DNA of 64,000 bases from Citromicrobium sp. JLT1363. Its GTDB lineage: Bacteria > Pseudomonadota > Alphaproteobacteria > Sphingomonadales > Sphingomonadaceae. A program made the position numbers and the translations under genes. Under the pieces are notes generated by a model. That model saw nothing but the letters and a program-made list of their open reading frames with translations. It was not told where the DNA came from and did not search any database. The stretch spans positions 1 through 64,000 of the forward strand of contig NZ_AEUE01000010.1 in the NCBI RefSeq assembly GCF_000186705.1, read 5' to 3'. This document shows positions 54,762 to 64,000 of the stretch, in pieces (position 1 is the first letter of the stretch; each line of letters opens with the position of its first letter).

Positions 54762-56963
54762 CTAGAAGTCTACGTCGAGCCGGACTGCGACGGTGCGCGG
54801 ATCGCCCAGCCGGGCCACTTCGTCACCCGGAACCGAGAAATTGACGAAAGAGTAGTATTGCGCGTCGAGCGCGTTGCGCACGTATGCGCTCAACCGGAAG
54901 TTCCGCCACGCGAAGCCGAGGCGGGCATTGACCAGCACACGCTCGCAGCATTGGTTGACCGCGAAATTCTCGGCCAGGGCATAGACGCTGGACTGGTAGC
55001 TCGCATCCACCCCTCCGAAAAATCCGTGGTCCGATCGATAGGCGACCCCGAGATTGCCCGACCATCTGGGGGCGAAGGGGAACCGATTGCCCTCGAAATT
55101 CTCCTGGTTGGATTCGCTTTGCGGCAGGCCCGGATCGAAATTGCCGTTGGGAAAGTCGTCGAATTCGGTGAAGGAATAGCCGACGCCGCCGTAAATCTCG
55201 AACGCGTCGGTCACATCGAAGGAAAGATCGGTCTCGAAACCGTAAAGCGTCGATTCCCCCGCATTCACCGTCCGCGCGAAGGTCGGGAAACCGGGGATGG
55301 GTTCGCTTACCTGCTGGTCCGTCCAGTCGGAGTAGAAGAGGTTGGAGTTCCAGCGCAGGCGTCCGTCCATCATCGTGGTTCGCGCTGCGAGTTCGTAGTT
55401 CCAGAGATATTCCGGATCGAAGGTGTTCACCGAACCGTCGATCACGCTGATTTCCCCGCCGCCCGCGCGGTAGGCGCGCTGCACGACGAAGGAGAGGTTG
55501 GTATCCGGATCGAGATTCCAGCGCACACCGGCCTTGGGCAGCCAGGCATCGTAGGCTGCATCGATCGTGCTGGTTTCCGTGCCTAGCAGCGGGGCGAGAT
55601 AGCCGAACTGCGGAGGAAGAGGATCTACGGTGTCGGTGGTTGCGCTGGCGATATTGCGCAGCTCTTCGTTGTCGTACCGAAGGCCGAAAAGCAGATCGAA
55701 CCGGTCCGACAGGCGAAACTCGCCGTCTGCGAAAAAGGCGAAGTTTTCGGTTTCGTTATCCGTATCCGACACGCGCGAAATCAGGATGCTGGCGGGCAAG
55801 GCCGGATTCAGGATGGTGGCGGGCACGACGAAGCTGTCGGTAAAGCCGTCCTTGTTGGTGAAATAGTAGAACCCGGCCACCGCCGACAGGCGGTCGCCGA
55901 AGTACTTCAGTCGCAGCTCCTGCGACCAGGCCTCGTCGTCCCCCGTCCTGTCCAGCGCTGCGACGGGCGCTGGCGTGACGTCGAAGTCTTCCTGGCGAAC
56001 ATAATCGGTGTTCTGATAGGTCGTGATCGACTGCAGCTGGATCGCCGACGATACATCCCATGTGGCATTTACCGACTGGATGAAGGTATCCGTGCCCTCG
56101 AGCCCCGGGGTGTCGTACGCGACTTCGCGGACCACATCTTCGGCGGCAAGCGGGTTGCCCGGATTGCCGTTCGTGGGATCGAGGCTGTCTTCGCCGGCAA
56201 AGTTCTCCGTGTAGGAGGTGGTGGTGATGATCGAGAGATTGGCTGCCGGTTCGATCAGCAGCTTGAATCGGCCCGTTTTCAGTTCGGTCCTGTCGGCCTC
56301 GGCATCGAGGAAGGTGTTGTAGATGAAGCCGTCGCTTTCGCGGTAGTTCGCAGAGGCGCGGAAGGCCAGGAGGCCGTCGATGATCGGCCCACCGGCCGCA
56401 GCCGCGATCTGGCGCTGGCCGTTGTCGCCGATCTCGCCACGCAGGCGCGCATTCCATTCGTAGCCCGGATCACGCGTCCGCAGGTAGATCGCTCCCGCCA
56501 GCGCGTTGCGTCCGAAATTGGTCGATTGCGGGCCACGATAGACCTCGACCTGGCCGAGATCCCAGCTGTCGGTCGGGCCGAAGAACGTGGTTGAATTGCC
56601 GAGCGGGGAATCGTCGACATAGACCGTCAGCGTCGCCCCGTTGCCGCCAATGCCGCGCTGGTCGATACCGCGAATGGCAAAGCCCTGCTCGCCGAAGGCC
56701 GCTGTCACATTCGGGACCCGGGTAATAATGTCGTACAGATCGCTGACCGGTTCGCGTTCTATTTCCTCGCCGGTCGTGACATCGACGCTTGCCGTCACCT
56801 CCTGCAGGGACTGGTCGATCTTCTGCCCTTCGACAATGATGACGGATTGATAGTCCGAAGCCTGGGGATCGGGGCTTTCCCGATCACCGATGTCCGCAGT
56901 CTGAGCCGATGCCGCAGTGGCGAATGCGAAGGTCGATACCCCCAGAAGCAAGGCGAGGCGCAT
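54762..56963 (-). CDS. TonB-dependent receptor, probably for an iron complex
   Basis: A 733-residue receptor. Signal peptide MRLALLLGVSTFAFATAASA, TonB-box-like SVIIVEGQKI, plug domain with FAIRGIDQRGIGGNGATLTV and LGQVEVYRGPQSTNFGRNAL (about residues 45-165), and a barrel ending VAVRLDVDF with terminal Phe. It is first in an operon with the small membrane protein and PepSY protein, a layout typical of siderophore or heme uptake. A Fur-like inverted repeat lies 60-80 bases before the start, supporting iron control. Confidence 0.92.
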   Translation of the reverse strand: MRLALLLGVSTFAFATAASAQTADIGDRESPDPQASDYQSVIIVEGQKIDQSLQEVTASVDVTTGEEIEREPVSDLYDIITRVPNVTAAFGEQGFAIRGIDQRGIGGNGATLTVYVDDSPLGNSTTFFGPTDSWDLGQVEVYRGPQSTNFGRNALAGAIYLRTRDPGYEWNARLRGEIGDNGQRQIAAAAGGPIIDGLLAFRASANYRESDGFIYNTFLDAEADRTELKTGRFKLLIEPAANLSIITTTSYTENFAGEDSLDPTNGNPGNPLAAEDVVREVAYDTPGLEGTDTFIQSVNATWDVSSAIQLQSITTYQNTDYVRQEDFDVTPAPVAALDRTGDDEAWSQELRLKYFGDRLSAVAGFYYFTNKDGFTDSFVVPATILNPALPASILISRVSDTDNETENFAFFADGEFRLSDRFDLLFGLRYDNEELRNIASATTDTVDPLPPQFGYLAPLLGTETSTIDAAYDAWLPKAGVRWNLDPDTNLSFVVQRAYRAGGGEISVIDGSVNTFDPEYLWNYELAARTTMMDGRLRWNSNLFYSDWTDQQVSEPIPGFPTFARTVNAGESTLYGFETDLSFDVTDAFEIYGGVGYSFTEFDDFPNGNFDPGLPQSESNQENFEGNRFPFAPRWSGNLGVAYRSDHGFFGGVDASYQSSVYALAENFAVNQCCERVLVNARLGFAWRNFRLSAYVRNALDAQYYSFVNFSVPGDEVARLGDPRTVAVRLDVDF

Positions 56964-57022
56964 GGATTTCCCTGTTCATCCCGAGTCGTTGCGCGCGCCC
57001 TAGGACTACTTCCGGTGAATGT

Positions 57023-57043
57023 AAATGCGACTTACTAGCATTT
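57023..57043. promoter_or_regulatory. Fur-like inverted repeat before the iron-uptake operon
   Basis: AAATGC and GCATTT are perfect arms separated by nine bases, 60 bases before the receptor start on the - strand. The core TGCGACTTACTAGCA resembles alphaproteobacterial Fur boxes (TGCGA/TCGCA-like halves). A second, different palindrome at 57121 belongs to the divergent gene. Confidence 0.5.
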
Positions 57044-57120
57044 GCGAAAAGGCATCGCTGGAGACTGGACAGCGGTTTTTCCTCCGCTGCCTGCACGAGC
57101 CCCACCGGCACCCGCGCGAC

Positions 57121-57136
57121 TATCCCATATGGGATA
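57121..57136. promoter_or_regulatory. Palindrome site 1 (TATCCCA-TA-TGGGATA family)
   Basis: TATCCCATATGGGATA is a perfect 16-base palindrome followed by TTC. Its centre is about 70 bases before the ATG of the 280-residue secreted protein. The same motif and distance recur at 58508 and 63737. Confidence 0.7.
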
Positions 57137-57197
57137 TTCAACCCGCTCGCTCCGCACAGCATTCCCTGCCGACCATTCACAGCAAGGGATCGCTGCA

Positions 57198-58040
57198 ATG
57201 AAGCACTCAATCATGACTGCCATGGGCCTCGCGCTCGTGGCGACCTCCTTCACCGCACCTGCGGACGCCAATCCGTTCAAGCGGCTCAAGAACAAGGTCG
57301 AGGAGGTCAAGAAAGAGGTCGAGGAAGTGGAAGAGGCTGCCGATGCGGTAGGCGATATGGTCGACGCCGTGTCGGGCGATCGCCGGGTGGGTGGCCCGGT
57401 CATCGGATCGAATGGCCCCACCACCCGCACGCGCTACCCCAAGACCGCAAGCCACGGCGACTGGAAGGGCCGCGCACCGGCGGCTCCGGCGAAGTATGCC
57501 GGGATGACCCAGTGCGAGAATCTGAACCTGGGTAATGCCTTCATCGCAAAGGCGGGCGAATACACCTTCTCCAAGGGCCTCAACACGGAAACGCGCAGCG
57601 GCTTGATCGAACGCGAGCCCGTCCAGCCCAACGGCTGCACGCTGCCCGGCGTGGGCTCGGGCGACGTCATCTACGTCGAGGTCGACCGCGGCAACTTCAA
57701 CACGCACGAATACAACATGCAGTGCGTCTCCTTCGACGGAAGCCAGCAGTTGGATAGAGCGTGGGTCCCACCGACCAACAATTACACCGGCAAGGACGTG
57801 ATGCTGCACACGGGCAACAGCCTGGGCTACGAGCCGACGGCGACCGGGAGCAATTCCACGCGGTCCGGAGAGTACGATAAATGGCTGAAATCTCGCGGTC
57901 GGGAGATGATCACCTTCAACATGCCTTATCTGCACACGGACAAGGGCGGCACGGATTTCTACTGCCAGTACTATAACGACAAGACCGGCAAGAGCGCGGT
58001 CGCCTTTACCTATCGTCGCAGCCCGGTGGGCCGCCCCTGA
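57198..58040 (+). CDS. Secreted protein of unknown function (280 residues)
   Basis: Not recognised. Signal peptide MKHSIMTAMGLALVATSFTA with cleavage near ADA. Next comes a Lys/Glu/Val coiled-coil-like stretch (residues about 30-55, LKNKVEEVKKEVEEVEE), a linker, and a mature domain of about 190 residues with four cysteines (MTQCENLNL, PNGCTLPG, NMQCVSFDG, DFYCQYYND). The start has AAGGGA before it; the longer frame crosses the promoter. Palindrome site 1 lies in its promoter, which makes it a member of the proposed regulon. The 101-residue protein follows 78 bases later. Confidence 0.72.
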   Translation: MKHSIMTAMGLALVATSFTAPADANPFKRLKNKVEEVKKEVEEVEEAADAVGDMVDAVSGDRRVGGPVIGSNGPTTRTRYPKTASHGDWKGRAPAAPAKYAGMTQCENLNLGNAFIAKAGEYTFSKGLNTETRSGLIEREPVQPNGCTLPGVGSGDVIYVEVDRGNFNTHEYNMQCVSFDGSQQLDRAWVPPTNNYTGKDVMLHTGNSLGYEPTATGSNSTRSGEYDKWLKSRGREMITFNMPYLHTDKGGTDFYCQYYNDKTGKSAVAFTYRRSPVGRP

Positions 58041-58118
58041 AGCAGACAACCTCCTGCGCGGCGGCCCCCTACCCAACCCTTTTATCCGTCGCGCACACAC
58101 ATTTCACGGAGAGAAACC

Positions 58119-58424
58119 ATGCGTATTTTCATCGTCGCGAGCGCCGCGCTCCTCGCATTCGGAACAGCCCCCGCCGCCTATGCCCAATCGAGCGGCACCG
58201 AAGTGGCCAAGGACGGCGCCTGCCCCACCGGCTTCAGGGCGTCGGGTTCCAAATGCGTGTCGAGCAGCGGCAAGGTCGCCATCGTCAAGCTCGGCAGCTG
58301 CCCGAAGGGCTTCAAGGCGAGCGCGAACTACTGCGTCGGCGACAAGGGCGCCTATGCCGAAGTGCGCAGCGGCAGCTGCAAGAACGGGCTGAAGACCGCC
58401 GGCAAGTACTGCATCAAGGACTAG
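58119..58424 (+). CDS. Small cysteine-rich secreted protein (101 residues)
   Basis: Not recognised. Signal peptide with cleavage near AYA (residue 22). The mature part holds three short repeats, each with two cysteines: GACPTGFRASGSKCV, GSCPKGFKASANYCV and GSCKNGLKTAGKYCI. The basic residues and regular cysteines suggest a small disulfide-bonded periplasmic or extracellular protein. A purine-rich GGAGAGAAA precedes the ATG. A strong terminator follows, so it may end a transcript begun at the 280-residue gene; it has no palindrome of its own. Confidence 0.78.
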   Translation: MRIFIVASAALLAFGTAPAAYAQSSGTEVAKDGACPTGFRASGSKCVSSSGKVAIVKLGSCPKGFKASANYCVGDKGAYAEVRSGSCKNGLKTAGKYCIKD

Positions 58425-58450
58425 AAAGTCCTCACACAAGAAGGAACGGA

Positions 58451-58478
58451 GGGTCGGCAGCGATGCCGGCCCTTTTTT
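58451..58478 (+). terminator. Intrinsic terminator
   Basis: GGGTCGGCA and TGCCGGCCC pair fully (one G-T pair) around GCGA and are followed at once by six T. It lies 27 bases after the 101-residue gene and 30 bases before palindrome site 2. Confidence 0.9.
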
Positions 58479-58507
58479 GCTTGCTGAAAGGGCGAAAGAC
58501 GCCCGCG

Positions 58508-58525
58508 ATATCCCATGTGGGATAT
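58508..58525. promoter_or_regulatory. Palindrome site 2 (ATATCCCA-TG-TGGGATAT)
   Basis: Perfect 8-base arms around TG, followed by TCC. The centre is about 70 bases before the ATG of the PKD autotransporter. It lies just after an intrinsic terminator, so it belongs to the downstream promoter. Confidence 0.75.
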
Positions 58526-58586
58526 TCCGCTTCGCCGCCGGACTTTCCAAGCCCCCTGCCGGATCGCATCACGCAGGGGTCGAATC

Positions 58587-61500
58587 ATGTCTCAGTTTTC
58601 GAAGAATTTTCGTCGCGCGCTCGTACTGGGCGGGGTTTCCAGTCTCGCTCTGGGGACGCCGGCACAGGCAGCAACAGGCACTGCGCCAACCAATTTTACC
58701 TTTCGGAATAGCGGCAGCAACTGCGTCATTGATGCAACGTGGACCGTCACCGGCACCACCGACGATAATGGAAATAATATCGACTTCACTTCGATCGAAC
58801 TAACCGATGGCTCGGGCAATATGTTAGGTTCAACAGGCACCGGTACCTCCGTTGGATCGACGAGAACCCTCCAGGGTGGCTTCGGCGTTAACAGCCAGAC
58901 TACGGCTTCGGGGCCGATCTACATGGCGCAATACGACGTTGATGGGTCGAGCAATCGGCTAAGTCTATTGGGTCGCACCACCGTTGATCTTAATCAGATG
59001 GCTGCTGCCGGCGGTGCGTGCGCTACCCTCGCTGCAAATCTTTCTGCACCGGCCAACAATCCGCCGGTAGCCGATGCGGGCAACGACCAGAATGTCGCGC
59101 GAAACAGCATGGCGCAACTCGACGGCTCGGGTTCGAGAGATCCCGACGGCGACCCGCTGACCTATAGCTGGACGCAGACCAGCGGCCAGACGGTCACGCT
59201 GACCGGAGCGAACACGGCCACCCCCAGCTTTGCGGTGCCCAATGTCGACCGCCGGGGCGCGACCTACGTCTTTGAGCTCACCACCTCCGACCCCAGCGGC
59301 GCGACCGCGACCGATACCGTCCGGATCGTCGCCCCCGCCAACCAGCAGCCCAATCCGGATGCCGGCCCCGACCAGACCGTGCAGGGCGGCAGCACCGTGA
59401 CGCTGGACGGAAGCGGCACCACCGATCCCGAAGGCGATCCGATCACCTTTGACTGGGCGCAAAGCGGCGGGCCCACGGTCACGCTCAACAACCCGAACAG
59501 CGTCAGCCCCACCTTTGTCGCGCCCGCAGCGACGAACAGCCCGCAGGTGCTCGAATTCACGCTGGTCCCTGGAGACGGCGTGCCGAATCCGCCCAACGGC
59601 GTAATCAGTGTCGATACGGTCTCCATCACAATCCCCGCCGCACCCGTCAACGGCACCCCGACAGCCAATGCCGGTCCCGACCGCACTGTGCTTGGCGGGC
59701 AGACTGTCAACTTCGACTTCTCGCAGTCGAGCGATCCGGAGGGTGATCCCCTCACCTACAGCTTCGTGCAGATCAGCGGGCCGCAGGCGACCATCGTCAG
59801 CGCCGTCGGAGCCGGGGCGAGCATCGAGGCGCCGCCGACCGCAGCCAGCGCCCAGACGCTGGTCTTCGAACTGACCGTCAACGATGGCACTTCGAGCGAC
59901 ACCGACACGGTGACGGTGACGGTCGAGGCCAATCGTGCCCCGGTCGCCGATGCAGGGCCCGACCAGACGGCGCAGGGCGGCTCGGTCGTCATCCTCGATG
60001 GCACCGGATCGTCCGACGAAGGGCAGTTCACCTACACCTGGGTCCAGACCGGCGGCCCGACGGTGACCCTCGATAATGCCAACCTTGCCCGCCCGCGCTT
60101 CACCGCACCGGCAGGCCAGGCAACGGCGACCCCGATCACCTTCGAACTCACCATCGACGACGGGATTGCGACTGCGACCGATAGCGTTGTGGTCACGGTT
60201 GAAGCCAATACCGCCCCCGTTGCGGATGCGGGGGCCGATCAGGGCCCGATCGACAGCGGGCAGACCGTGACGCTGAACGCGACCGGGTCGAGCGATCCCG
60301 AGGGCGATACGCTGACCTACAGCTGGACGCAGGTTTCCGGGCCGAGCGTCGCGCTCAGCAATCCTTCGGCTGCGAACCCGAGCTTCACCGCGCCCGACGT
60401 CAATGGCCAGGAGAACCTCGTGTTCGAACTGGTGGTCAACGACGGGCAGGTGGATTCGCCTGCGGACAGCGTAACCATCGCCGTGCGCGGCCTCGGCACG
60501 ATTACCATCGTGCAGCAGGTCATCGGCGCGGACACCACCGTCGGCTATACCAGCACGGTGCCGGGCCTGCCTGCGAGCGCCACCACCAGCGGCGGGACGG
60601 CGACCATCGCGGCGACGGATATCGCCACAGGAAGCTACAGCTTCTCCGTGAACGACCTGCGGGCGCAGGGGTACGCCCTCACCGCGCTCGCCTGCAACGA
60701 TGGCGACAGCACCGTGTCGCTCGCCAATGCCAGTATCGCACTGGCCCTCTCGCCGAGCGAGGATCTGGTGTGCACGGTCACGCTGACCAATTCGCGCAGC
60801 GCCGCGCAGCAGGCGATCGGCGAGTTCATCGGCGGGCGCAACGCGCTGCTGCTGGCCAACCAGCCGGACCTGCAACGCCGCCTCGGCAGGCTGCGTGGCA
60901 GCCAGTCGGCCAGCGGATCGGCGCGGGTCGGTCAGCTGCCGGTCCCCGGCAGCCAGTACCTGCCCGCCCAGATCGAGATCGACCGGGCGAGCAAGTCGGT
61001 CACCACGAGCCTCGCCATGGCGAAGCAGGCGATGGGCCTCGGCGGATCGGACCGCTCGAAGCTCGACATCTGGGCCGAGGCCAGCGTTTCCGACGTGACG
61101 ATCGGACGCAACAAGGGCACGTTCGTGCTCGGCTATCTCGGGCTCGATTATCTCGCCACGGACGACATGCTGATCGGCGCGCTGGTCCAGATCGACGATT
61201 TCGACAACGAGGCATCGGGCCTGGGCGCCGCCCTCGCAGAAGGCCATGGCTGGATGGCCGGACCTTACGTGACGGCACGCCTTGCCGAGCGGTTGTACGT
61301 CGATCTGCGCGCAGCCTACGGGCGTGCGGACAACAGCGTGTCGCCGCTGGGGACCTTCGTGAGCGCGTTCGACACCGAACGCTTCCTGATCAGCGGCTCG
61401 GCCATCGGCGATGTGCCGCTCGGTGGCGGGTTCGGGATCTGGCCCGAAATCGGGGTCCGCTACATCAGCGAGGATGTGGAGGACTATGTCGATGCGCTGG

Positions 61501-61805
61501 GCGTTGCGATCCCGGGCACGCGGATCGACCAGGGCGAAGTCGCCTTCAGTCCGCGGCTGGCCTACCGCAAGACCTTCGCGAGCGGCTGGGCCATCGCACC
61601 CTTTGCCGAGATTGAGGGGCTGCTGACCTTTGGCAGCGATGCGTTCTCAGCGGTCGAGGACGGGCTGCGGGCGCGGCTCATGCTGGGGCTCGACGGCAGT
61701 GCGCCTGCCGGCCTGCGCTTCGGCGTGCGGGGCTTCTACGACGGGATCGGGGAGGACGAACTCGAAGCGCTGGGCGCCAGCGTCACGGTGGGCTTCAACT
61801 TCTGA
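58587..61805 (+). CDS. PKD-repeat autotransporter
   Basis: A 1072-residue surface protein. Signal peptide (cleavage near AQA, about residue 30), a short domain with SNCVIDATWTVTGTTDDNG, then five PKD/REJ-type beta-sandwich repeats between about residues 155 and 630. Each repeat shows PVADAGPDQT, VTLDGSGSSDPEGDPLTYSW and FELTVNDG-like stretches. A prealbumin-like domain follows (about 635-750, with LACNDGD and DLVCTVTL). The last 300 residues form a type V barrel ending VTVGFNF. AGGGG precedes the ATG. Such proteins usually serve adhesion; no protease motif is seen. It is preceded by palindrome site 2 and converges on the LuxR-hydrolase gene. Confidence 0.87.
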   Translation: MSQFSKNFRRALVLGGVSSLALGTPAQAATGTAPTNFTFRNSGSNCVIDATWTVTGTTDDNGNNIDFTSIELTDGSGNMLGSTGTGTSVGSTRTLQGGFGVNSQTTASGPIYMAQYDVDGSSNRLSLLGRTTVDLNQMAAAGGACATLAANLSAPANNPPVADAGNDQNVARNSMAQLDGSGSRDPDGDPLTYSWTQTSGQTVTLTGANTATPSFAVPNVDRRGATYVFELTTSDPSGATATDTVRIVAPANQQPNPDAGPDQTVQGGSTVTLDGSGTTDPEGDPITFDWAQSGGPTVTLNNPNSVSPTFVAPAATNSPQVLEFTLVPGDGVPNPPNGVISVDTVSITIPAAPVNGTPTANAGPDRTVLGGQTVNFDFSQSSDPEGDPLTYSFVQISGPQATIVSAVGAGASIEAPPTAASAQTLVFELTVNDGTSSDTDTVTVTVEANRAPVADAGPDQTAQGGSVVILDGTGSSDEGQFTYTWVQTGGPTVTLDNANLARPRFTAPAGQATATPITFELTIDDGIATATDSVVVTVEANTAPVADAGADQGPIDSGQTVTLNATGSSDPEGDTLTYSWTQVSGPSVALSNPSAANPSFTAPDVNGQENLVFELVVNDGQVDSPADSVTIAVRGLGTITIVQQVIGADTTVGYTSTVPGLPASATTSGGTATIAATDIATGSYSFSVNDLRAQGYALTALACNDGDSTVSLANASIALALSPSEDLVCTVTLTNSRSAAQQAIGEFIGGRNALLLANQPDLQRRLGRLRGSQSASGSARVGQLPVPGSQYLPAQIEIDRASKSVTTSLAMAKQAMGLGGSDRSKLDIWAEASVSDVTIGRNKGTFVLGYLGLDYLATDDMLIGALVQIDDFDNEASGLGAALAEGHGWMAGPYVTARLAERLYVDLRAAYGRADNSVSPLGTFVSAFDTERFLISGSAIGDVPLGGGFGIWPEIGVRYISEDVEDYVDALGVAIPGTRIDQGEVAFSPRLAYRKTFASGWAIAPFAEIEGLLTFGSDAFSAVEDGLRARLMLGLDGSAPAGLRFGVRGFYDGIGEDELEALGASVTVGFNF

Positions 61806-61828
61806 TCTTCCTCAAGGTCGCAAACAAC

Positions 61829-61864
61829 GGAAAGGGCGGCTTCCCGGCGAGGCTGCCCTTTTCC
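61829..61864. terminator. Bidirectional terminator between convergent genes
   Basis: GGAAAGGGCGGC pairs with GCTGCCCTTTTCC (one bulge, one wobble) in the 77-base gap between the PKD autotransporter and the LuxR-hydrolase gene. The A and T runs are built into the stem ends, suiting termination in both directions. Confidence 0.75.
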
Positions 61865-61882
61865 GATTCCTGTCCGCCCGCC

Positions 61883-63508
61883 TCAGCGCCTGAGGGCGTC
61901 CACCGCCGCAGCGGGGTTCTGGAACACCAGAAAGCTGCCCGCATCCGCGATCGGGGCCGCAAGTTCGAACCCGAACCGCTCGGCGAAGGAACGCGCCAGC
62001 CCCTCGGTCGCCAGACGGTCCTGCGCGCCGCGAAGGACGGTGACCGGCGGGGCAACGTCGCAGGCGAGCGCGCTCCAGTCCGAGGCATAGAGCTGCAGTT
62101 CCTGCATCGCCGCGGCGAACCCGTGTTCGAAGATCGCGAGCGATGCGTCGCGCAGGAATTCCCGGTTGTCGGGCTGCGCAGCAAACGCGTGATCCGCCGC
62201 GGAATCCCTGAAGAAGGTATCCATGTAATTCCCCAGCAGTCCCTTGCGGATCTTGGCGACGACGGCCCTGACATAGAGGCGCATCGCGGCTGGCAAGCGC
62301 CGGGTGAGTTGCAAGGGCAGGCGGTGCCCGATGCCGAGCATGGCCAGTTCCTCGTCGGTGCTGATCGGCAGCGCAGGCCCGGCGATCACCACCCTCTCGC
62401 ACAGATGCGGGAACTCCCTCGCGAAGGCGAGCGCGAACGCAGTCCCGCCCGAGGCGGCAAGCAGGCGCGCCCGGCCGATCCCCAGCTGATCGAGCAGGTG
62501 AACCATCCCCCCGGCGAAGGCGATGGCCATGTCCTCTCCGCTCCCTTCCTCCGCCGTCCGGCCGCAATAGGGGCGCCAGGGCGCGATAACGCGAAGATTG
62601 GCTTTCTCGAGTGCCTCCACGGTCGCCGGCGGGAGGAAGGGTCCGCCGAACAGCGGATGGAAATAGAGCACCGGCGCACCATCCGCCGCCCCGTAGAAGT
62701 TCACCCGGGTTTCGACCTCATCGAGCAGGAAGGTCTGGCTCGGGTGGCGCAGCGCATCCTGGCCGGAGACTTCGCGCCGGAGGCCGGTCAGCCCCCGAAA
62801 GCCCCCGTAGAGCGCGATCAGCTCGCCTTGCGAGCCAAGTTCCAGCTTGTGCAGCAAGCGTTTCAGCTGGTTGCGCACCGTCCCTAGCGAGGTCTCCCGC
62901 TCCTGCGCCAGAAGCCGCAGGTTTCCGCGTTCGAGCACTTCGCGCACGATCGCCTGTTCCGCCGGCGTCAGGGCAAAGGCCTGCGCGAAGTGCGCGGCGC
63001 TTTGCGCCTCCCAGCGCAGCGGCACCGGGCATAGTTCGACTGCCGCAGAATCGTTCGCGCTGCGGCGGGCGAGGTGCGGAGTCGGGCGATCGCAATCGGG
63101 CGACAGCAGCAGGCCGATCACCGCCTGCCGCTCCTCCCCCTCGCCGATCATCTTGAGGATGGCGCGGTCTTCGCGTGCCCGGTCGGTCAGCCAGACACGC
63201 TCGGGCAGCGAATCTCCCGGGCCTGCATCGTGAATGGCGGCCGTCGCCGTCAGCAATCTCAGCCTTTGGTCCAGCAGGATAGTGTGCGCCTCGCCATCCG
63301 CGGTGGCGTCACCTCCGGGCAGAGCCGCGCCGCTCAGGATCGCATCGGCATTCTCGAAGTGAAACGACAGCCGCGCACCGCCATCGGCGAGCGCACCTTT
63401 ATCGGCAAGCTGCGTGAGAACCGGCCTCAGCGAGAGCAATTGCGACGGGTCCGCCGCGACCGCGTAGATCCGGGCAATGAGTTCGTCGTGGTCGCTCGCC
63501 TTGCTCAT
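61883..63508 (-). CDS. LuxR-type regulator fused to an alpha/beta-hydrolase-like domain
   Basis: A 541-residue protein. Residues about 1-170 form an unassigned N-terminal domain. Residues about 180-238 are a LuxR-type helix-turn-helix (LTPAEQAIVREVLERGNLRL, then ETSLGTVRNQLKRLLHKL). Residues about 265-540 are an alpha/beta-hydrolase fold: oxyanion segment YFHPLFGGPF (His284), nucleophile elbow LLAASGGTAF (Ser353) and acid in VLRGAQDRL (Asp497). Where the catalytic His is expected (usually AGHF) it reads DAGSFLVFQ, with Ser525, so hydrolysis is doubtful and ligand sensing is likely. The start MSKASDHDE is chosen over an upstream in-frame ATG with no domain support. A divergent paralogue begins at 63817. 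Confidence 0.85.
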   Translation of the reverse strand: MSKASDHDELIARIYAVAADPSQLLSLRPVLTQLADKGALADGGARLSFHFENADAILSGAALPGGDATADGEAHTILLDQRLRLLTATAAIHDAGPGDSLPERVWLTDRAREDRAILKMIGEGEERQAVIGLLLSPDCDRPTPHLARRSANDSAAVELCPVPLRWEAQSAAHFAQAFALTPAEQAIVREVLERGNLRLLAQERETSLGTVRNQLKRLLHKLELGSQGELIALYGGFRGLTGLRREVSGQDALRHPSQTFLLDEVETRVNFYGAADGAPVLYFHPLFGGPFLPPATVEALEKANLRVIAPWRPYCGRTAEEGSGEDMAIAFAGGMVHLLDQLGIGRARLLAASGGTAFALAFAREFPHLCERVVIAGPALPISTDEELAMLGIGHRLPLQLTRRLPAAMRLYVRAVVAKIRKGLLGNYMDTFFRDSAADHAFAAQPDNREFLRDASLAIFEHGFAAAMQELQLYASDWSALACDVAPPVTVLRGAQDRLATEGLARSFAERFGFELAAPIADAGSFLVFQNPAAAVDALRR

Positions 63509-63736
63509 GAAGCATCTGGAATCCCACTTGAACCCGAAGACGCCATCTATGGCTTCAGCATGCTCGCAGAGCAAGGCATGGGGGCCACCCCGCTGCCGGG
63601 ATGGCCCCCGGCGGGACTGACGACGGCAAGCCATCGTCGGATCGCAAACGTCCCGCCAAGCTCGGCGATCTCAGTGTTTCGCGCACCCGGACGGTGCGCG
63701 TGCCGCACGCCCTAGCGGCGGGAAATATCGCGCGGC

Positions 63737-63754
63737 ATGTCCCATCTGGGACAT
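63737..63754. promoter_or_regulatory. Palindrome site 3 (ATGTCCCA-TC-TGGGACAT)
   Basis: Perfect 8-base arms around TC, followed by TCCC. The centre is about 71 bases before the ATG at 63817. It lies in the 308-base gap between two divergent LuxR-hydrolase genes, which holds no other feature I can support. The other gene's start has only a partial half-site, GTGGGATTCC, 15-24 bases before its ATG. Confidence 0.7.
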
Positions 63755-63816
63755 TCCCATCCGCCCGGCGCGGTGCTGTTTGCGGGCGTCAAAGCCCAGC
63801 GGATCGCAACGCAACC

Positions 63817-64000
63817 ATGACCAGGCACGCCAGCTCGACCGAAATCGAGAAGATCGTCGCGCAAGCCTATTCGGCGATCGCCAGCCCCGAGAGCGTTATC
63901 GAGCTTCTGGGACCGGTATCGCGTGTCGCATCGGCCGGAGCCGACGGGGCCTCCGCGCTCGAAGTGCATCTCGAAAATGCCGCCGACATCATCGATCGGG
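63817..64000 (+). CDS. Start of a paralogous LuxR-hydrolase-type regulator (truncated by window end)
   Basis: The first 61 codons are visible, still open at the window edge. The translated start MTRHASSTEIEKIVAQAYSA and the later ALEVHLENAADIIDR match the N-terminus of the divergent LuxR-hydrolase protein (HDELIARIYAVAADPSQLL and LSFHFENADAIL) in spacing and pattern. I infer a second member of the same family, but its helix-turn-helix and hydrolase domains would lie outside the window. Palindrome site 3 sits in its promoter. Confidence 0.6.
   Translation, partial: MTRHASSTEIEKIVAQAYSAIASPESVIELLGPVSRVASAGADGASALEVHLENAADIIDR

Follow-up and report, generated by a model that had tools for sequence, protein, structure and literature searches.

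A 541-residue bacterial protein, here termed regulator A, carries a LuxR-type helix-turn-helix (HTH) joined to a complete predicted α/β-hydrolase fold that has lost its catalytic histidine, and it appears to control neighbouring genes for secreted and surface proteins through a shared palindromic DNA site. The hydrolase shell has probably been reused to sense a molecule, although ligand, DNA binding and direction of control are inferences from sequence and models alone. The gene lies in a 64,000-nucleotide stretch of the genome of Citromicrobium sp. JLT1363 (the window; contig NZ_AEUE01000010.1), next to a divergently transcribed paralogue, B, while a third paralogue, C, is found on another contig. 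The palindrome TCCCATnTGGGA occurs exactly at three places in the 3.12-Mb genome, before the gene for a secreted-looking protein (c1), before a PKD-repeat autotransporter gene (c9) and between A and B. The features are collected in Table 1.

Table 1. Features of the regulator A locus, with positions in the 64,000-nucleotide window.
Feature	Position	Strand	Remarks
Regulator A	61883..63508	-	541 aa; PAS, LuxR-type HTH, predicted α/β-hydrolase fold without catalytic His
Predicted PAS domain	63014..63301	-	residues 70-165, preceded by helices 6-60; best Z 10.4
LuxR-type HTH region	62768..63007	-	residues 168-247; Asn213 in the recognition helix
Predicted α/β-hydrolase fold	61886..62743	-	residues 256-541; Z 31.1 to 9wlv
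Ser353	62450..62452	-	nucleophile position
Asp497	62018..62020	-	acid position
Ser525	61934..61936	-	catalytic-His position
Paralogue B, start	63817..64000	+	divergent; runs past the window end; Gln-Asp-Ser at the triad
Palindromic site	63736..63755	.	CATGTCCCATCTGGGACATT; between A and B
Palindromic site	58507..58526	.	GATATCCCATGTGGGATATT; before the autotransporter gene
Palindromic site	57119..57138	.	ACTATCCCATATGGGATATT; before c1
c1	57198..58040	+	secreted-looking 280-aa protein, no Pfam family; predicted target
c2	58119..58424	+	secreted-looking 101-aa protein with Cys-containing repeats
c9	58587..61805	+	PKD-repeat surface protein of autotransporter type; predicted target (the Pfam beta-domain hit is in its G178 homologue)
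Inverted repeat in the leader of A	63580-63609		GGGGGCC...GGCCCCC; possible attenuator

The open reading frame is real, running on the minus strand from an ATG at 63508 to a stop ending at 61883, and although an upstream in-frame ATG exists (63634), close relatives align from about 63508. Pfam identifies Abhydrolase_1 at residues 279-527 (E 4e-11). For A alone the sequence evidence for an HTH is weak (DUF2089 and Sigma70_r4, E 0.013 and 0.19; DesR in the PDB, E 0.026; the NarL model, E 0.005), but GerE/LuxR matches 33 of 71 aligned proteins, three of which are stand-alone hydrolases, and HTH helices are present in an AlphaFold model built with a 71-row alignment (pLDDT 90, pTM 0.82). This model shows helices 6-60, a mixed domain at 77-161, the HTH helices and a complete hydrolase fold, which aligns over 283 residues with PDB entry 9wlv (Z 31.1, rmsd 2.6), the next rows lying near Z 24; 9wlv was also the best profile match. 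The N-terminal 172 residues modelled alone (pLDDT 85, pTM 0.65) match PAS domains, the best being 5iu1 (Z 10.4) and 6dgg, a quorum-sensing PAS with a fatty acid (Z 9.7), over 94 and 93 residues respectively, although the best E value given by Foldseek itself was only 0.004. Pfam PAS_4 is weak and present in 8 of 41 aligned N-termini, and A itself has no Pfam match in this region. No autoinducer-binding domain was found among the six Pfam matches of A up to E 1, nor among the 25 of 34 matching families that were listed for its relatives.

The preliminary description of this gene, as a LuxR HTH fused to a hydrolase fold in which Ser353 and Asp497 fit the nucleophile and acid but Ser525 replaces the catalytic histidine, is confirmed. 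In the model Ser353 ends strand 347-353 at the nucleophile elbow, Asp497 follows strand 489-492 and Ser525 lies in the loop before the last helices, where the catalytic His sits. It is not a private slip, as the same Ser-Asp-Ser is present in orthologues from two other genera (genomes G051 and G296; G, L and C numbers hereafter denote genomes, loci and contigs), and since the reading frame and its odd active site are kept in orthologues at about 50 and 59% identity a decayed gene was rejected. An alignment of homologues, which had been suggested beforehand as a check, shows that the loss is family-wide. In 73 fused proteins, A included and with a few near-identical pairs among them, the nucleophile column holds Ser in 20, the acid column Asp in 54 and the His column His in 15, 23 having any His within three columns. 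A complete triad is left in six (L023, L070, L073, L077, L078 and L091), of which L070 has Asp and L078 Cys in place of the nucleophile Ser with the rest of the triad kept, so that these two may be active enzymes fused to an HTH. In contrast, in 30 stand-alone hydrolases, being the loci returned by a search of this genome and six relatives, the nucleophile is Ser or Asp in 30, the acid Asp or Glu in 29 and the His is present in 30. By alignment and model position, A therefore lacks the nucleophile-acid-His triad of catalytic α/β-hydrolases.

A tree of the fused proteins plus five stand-alone ones, rooted at the midpoint, places A with L004 (Ser-Asp-Ser) and B with L044 (Gln-Asp-Ser) inside a 14-protein clade (99/96 support) without any His. 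In this clade position 353 is Ser, Gln, His, Arg or Val and position 525 is Ser, Ala or Gly, while Asp497, H284, W311, P313, R403 and P406 are kept in 14 of 14. The inference is that a pocket has been kept without its chemistry. As judged by alignment alone, no replacement histidine is evident: H284 is the usual HG-motif His, present in 23 of the 30 controls too, H337, H368, H440 and H462 are not conserved, and H395 of the lid is His in 8 of 14 close relatives but does not track the Ser.

B and C are 30% and 24% identical to A. In the genus, 3 of 10 genomes match at all and only this one has A and B, while in the taxonomic family (f1, by content probably Sphingomonadaceae) 73 of 199 genomes match, many only in part. 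A and B have orthologues (59 and 62%) as a divergent pair beside the same type of autotransporter in G296, where a hairpin similar to the strong inverted repeat found 70-100 bases before the start of A also lies before the A orthologue (L126); no Rfam match up to E 0.5 was found in positions 56900-64000. Fused relatives also occur in other families of the class and phylum and on plasmids of Rhodobacterales, but none was found in phage records, and a further search for related loci in genome contigs gave no confirmed relative. Behind B, past the window end, lies a frame that reads by eye like a GAF/Fis-type regulator (L002:3187-4152).

Within f1, the neighbourhoods of the regulators on A's side of the tree point to the cell envelope. 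A blind clustering of neighbours in 20 regions gave c1 (about 290 aa) in 10, c2 (about 100 aa) in 6 and the PKD autotransporter c9 in 3. With profiles for these three and for YadA-type adhesins, the only four kinds of neighbour that were screened for, 25 of 31 f1 regions hold at least one in the fetched stretch, usually next to the regulator. The six without are L141, L160, L161, L162, L165 and L169, of which L141, L160 and L165 have a neighbour that looks secreted by eye. Addition of L215 (without) and L216 (with a YadA-type neighbour) gives 26 of 33 for f1 relatives on A's side of the tree, the regulators of L137, L140, L166, L168 and L170 being placed there by identity because they were not in the tree. 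In L216 (G026:C1:295000-310000) the PAS-HTH and hydrolase parts are two separate frames overlapping by a few bases and followed by the adhesin, which represents gene fission or a frameshift. None of these neighbours is present in 9 of 9 regions outside f1 (seven of them on A's side of the tree), nor in 19 of 20 regions of a second set, comprising L215, 16 regions from a distant f1 group and 2 from family f5 (one of the 18 only 3.6 kb long). A general rule that all fused relatives sit beside surface genes was therefore rejected, and the envelope link is not a property of the whole fusion family.

Pfam confirms PKD repeats in c9 of the window, an autotransporter beta-domain in its G178 homologue, and a YadA head with anchor or stalk in two of the adhesins. 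The c2 protein has a signal-peptide-like start and three CPxGFKxS-type repeats without a Pfam match, and is kept beside c1 in several genomes. c1 was found in 10 of 199 genomes in one search and in 8 of 246 in another, where one match (G314, E 9e-4 over part of a 609-aa frame) is taken as chance. The 12 different genomes with c1 at E 5e-7 or better all have a regulator of this family close by, either adjacent or with c2 or c9 between; in one of them, G128, regulator and c1 are both decayed side by side (G128:C1:1805587-1806221), as if the pair were lost together. G376 has a weak c1 by profile only, and regulators without c1 also exist (for example in G092, G178 and G296).

The palindrome is closely tied to this cluster. 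Within the window, TCCCATNTGGGA with at most one mismatch has 8 matches, both strands counted, against a mean of 0.68 in 100 shuffles, none of which reached 8. Exact matches in the whole genome lie at 57123, 58511 and 63740 of the window and nowhere else, at 63, 64 and 65 nt from core to start codon for c1, c9 and B, respectively. One-mismatch sites across the genome are background, as there are 9 further places while a reversed control pattern gave 7 forward and 7 reverse hits. When an 18-bp consensus from this genome was tested in 30 other f1 regions, it was found with at most 4 mismatches before 28 of 73 target or regulator genes but only 8 of 334 other genes (Fisher 9e-17, relatedness ignored), 7 of those 8 sharing the intergenic region of a target or regulator by position. 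The figures were c1 9 of 11 and c9 2 of 2 within 5 mismatches, regulators 12 of 33. However, 45 of the 73 genes lack a site within 4 mismatches (24 regulators, 14 adhesins, 5 c2 and 2 c1), and start codons were called automatically, some of them wrongly. C has its own variant, CATATCCCGTTTGGGGTATG, exact only at C26:398804, between C and a YadA-type gene, the pattern having been drawn from that site. The second YadA-type gene of this genome (C26:376681) is about 22 kb from C, and no site of C's kind within 3 mismatches lies near it. Palindromes before regulators outside f1 gave no shared motif by eye.

Across genomes the site variant tends to follow HTH residue 213. In 37 places with at most 4 mismatches in 31 whole regions, the fourth half-site letter is T in 35 of 42 half-sites where residue 213 is Asn (C in 1), and C in 18 of 30 where it is Thr (T in 10); with at most 3 mismatches the values are T in 30 of 36 and C in 4 of 8. 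Here as in the other counts relatedness is not corrected for, the scan uses an A/B-type consensus and some of its places lie far from a regulator. It replaces a tabulation of 27 hand-picked sites that left out some weaker places (T in 25 of 28 with Asn213, C in 18 of 22 with Thr213). Eight of eight listed adhesin sites, again selected by hand, are followed by TGAC on the gene side. A TA step 20-26 nt downstream of the site occurs in 16 of 24 rows (shuffle mean 5.3); as the element was chosen after inspection, the relevant p is 7e-4, with any window allowed.

Collectively these results favour, with reasonable confidence, a model in which A and B are one-component transcription regulators of a PAS-HTH-pseudohydrolase family. 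What sequence and structural models show is the domain order, a complete hydrolase fold, a degenerate catalytic triad in most of the family, and a shared palindrome in front of B, c1 and the autotransporter gene whose exact form is restricted to this locus. The remainder is inferred: that dimers bind the palindrome through the LuxR-type HTH, that the site lies at a fixed distance from the promoter and most likely serves activation, that the emptied hydrolase pocket, with or without the PAS domain, binds a small molecule that sets the state of the regulator, and that the outputs are the surface and secreted proteins encoded close by plus the regulators themselves. That the hydrolase is dead is highly likely and that A and B act on these sites is very likely, whereas ligand sensing by the hydrolase domain is only somewhat more likely than not. 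The interpretation in the preliminary description, of a dead hydrolase acting as a ligand receptor in the manner of plant hormone receptors, is thus supported in part. Reuse of a dead hydrolase in a regulator remains the best reading, but a ligand, and its suggested identity as a lactone or ester, would rest on inference alone, and the PAS domain in the N-terminal part that had been left unassigned, the divergent paralogue and the likely target genes with their shared site had been missed.

Other explanations are less well supported. It is conceivable, though unlikely, that the hydrolase-fold domain no longer binds any small molecule and only aids dimerisation or contacts another protein, with PAS as the sensor. 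PAS domains are common sensors, the PAS model is fair and the nucleophile and His columns vary widely, but the retention of Asp497, W311, R403 and H284 in all 14 A/B-clade proteins although catalysis is gone suggests a kept pocket, and the N-terminal part is poorly conserved (A is 38% identical to the nearest aligned relative there). Much less likely still is that the domain remains an enzyme in which Ser353 and Asp497, kept in A and its G051 and G296 orthologues, work with a histidine from elsewhere such as H395 or H284. Here the conservation of H395 in 8 of 14 close relatives and the six complete triads are offset by the absence of the Ser from 10 of those 14, by L010 and L011, which have Ser but Trp at 395, and by the common occurrence of the HG-motif His in the controls.

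Repression rather than activation, with the palindrome overlapping the promoter, is possible but doubtful. The sites lie close to where a -35 element would be, and A and B would be autoregulated; however, the constant 63-65 nt spacing in this genome and the TA step, if it is the -10 box, would put the site centre near -42, the usual place of LuxR-type activators. It is very unlikely that the palindrome belongs to another regulator with A and B as bystanders, a view that the purely inferential nature of the binding leaves room for, because the exact site is found only in this cluster, C has a variant site that is exact only at its own locus, and the site variant tends to follow residue 213.

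Plasmid relatives are annotated as 'alpha/beta fold hydrolase', 'alpha/beta hydrolase' or 'LuxR C-terminal-related transcriptional regulator', meaning that a class of regulators is partly hidden among enzymes. If the proposed reading is right, it is a bacterial counterpart of plant hormone receptors with a predicted operator and targets, which makes the ligand question testable with a simple reporter and offers a handle on how these bacteria control surface adhesins. A bolder view, possible but slightly less likely than not, is that bacteria evolved, independently of plants, a family of receptors in which a dead α/β-hydrolase fused to PAS and LuxR domains reads a small-molecule signal and switches on dedicated neighbouring adhesin, autotransporter and secreted-protein genes, each locus with its own matched operator, A and B forming a paired receptor unit on one shared site. 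The parts are of known kinds, but no account of their combination, its wide inactivation or the linked operator was found in the literature searched, which was confined to open-licence papers (including PMC10413115, PMC4338825, PMC3466318 and PMC2447327).

Among known systems, LuxR-type quorum-sensing regulators and LuxR solos share with A the LuxR/GerE-type HTH, a palindromic site and, by inference, autoregulation, but no autoinducer-binding domain was found in A, and its HTH is in the middle with a hydrolase fold following it. LuxR402 of Novosphingobium sp. HR1a is likewise a LuxR-type regulator that affects cell-envelope proteins, but at 291 aa it has ordinary LuxR length and responds to a homoserine lactone, and no hydrolase fusion was seen in its description (PMC10413115). 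PAS-LuxR one-component regulators have the same order of PAS followed by LuxR HTH, the difference being the C-terminal pseudohydrolase of about 285 residues. The closest solved fold, 9wlv, is an α/β-hydrolase of Microlunatus sagamiharensis that stands alone, with Ser, Asp and His aligned at the triad. By analogy, the plant gibberellin receptor GID1 and the strigolactone/karrikin receptors D14/KAI2 use the α/β-hydrolase fold as a hormone receptor, and GID1 lost the catalytic His. Those receptors act through protein partners; here the fold is fused to a DNA-binding domain in a bacterium.
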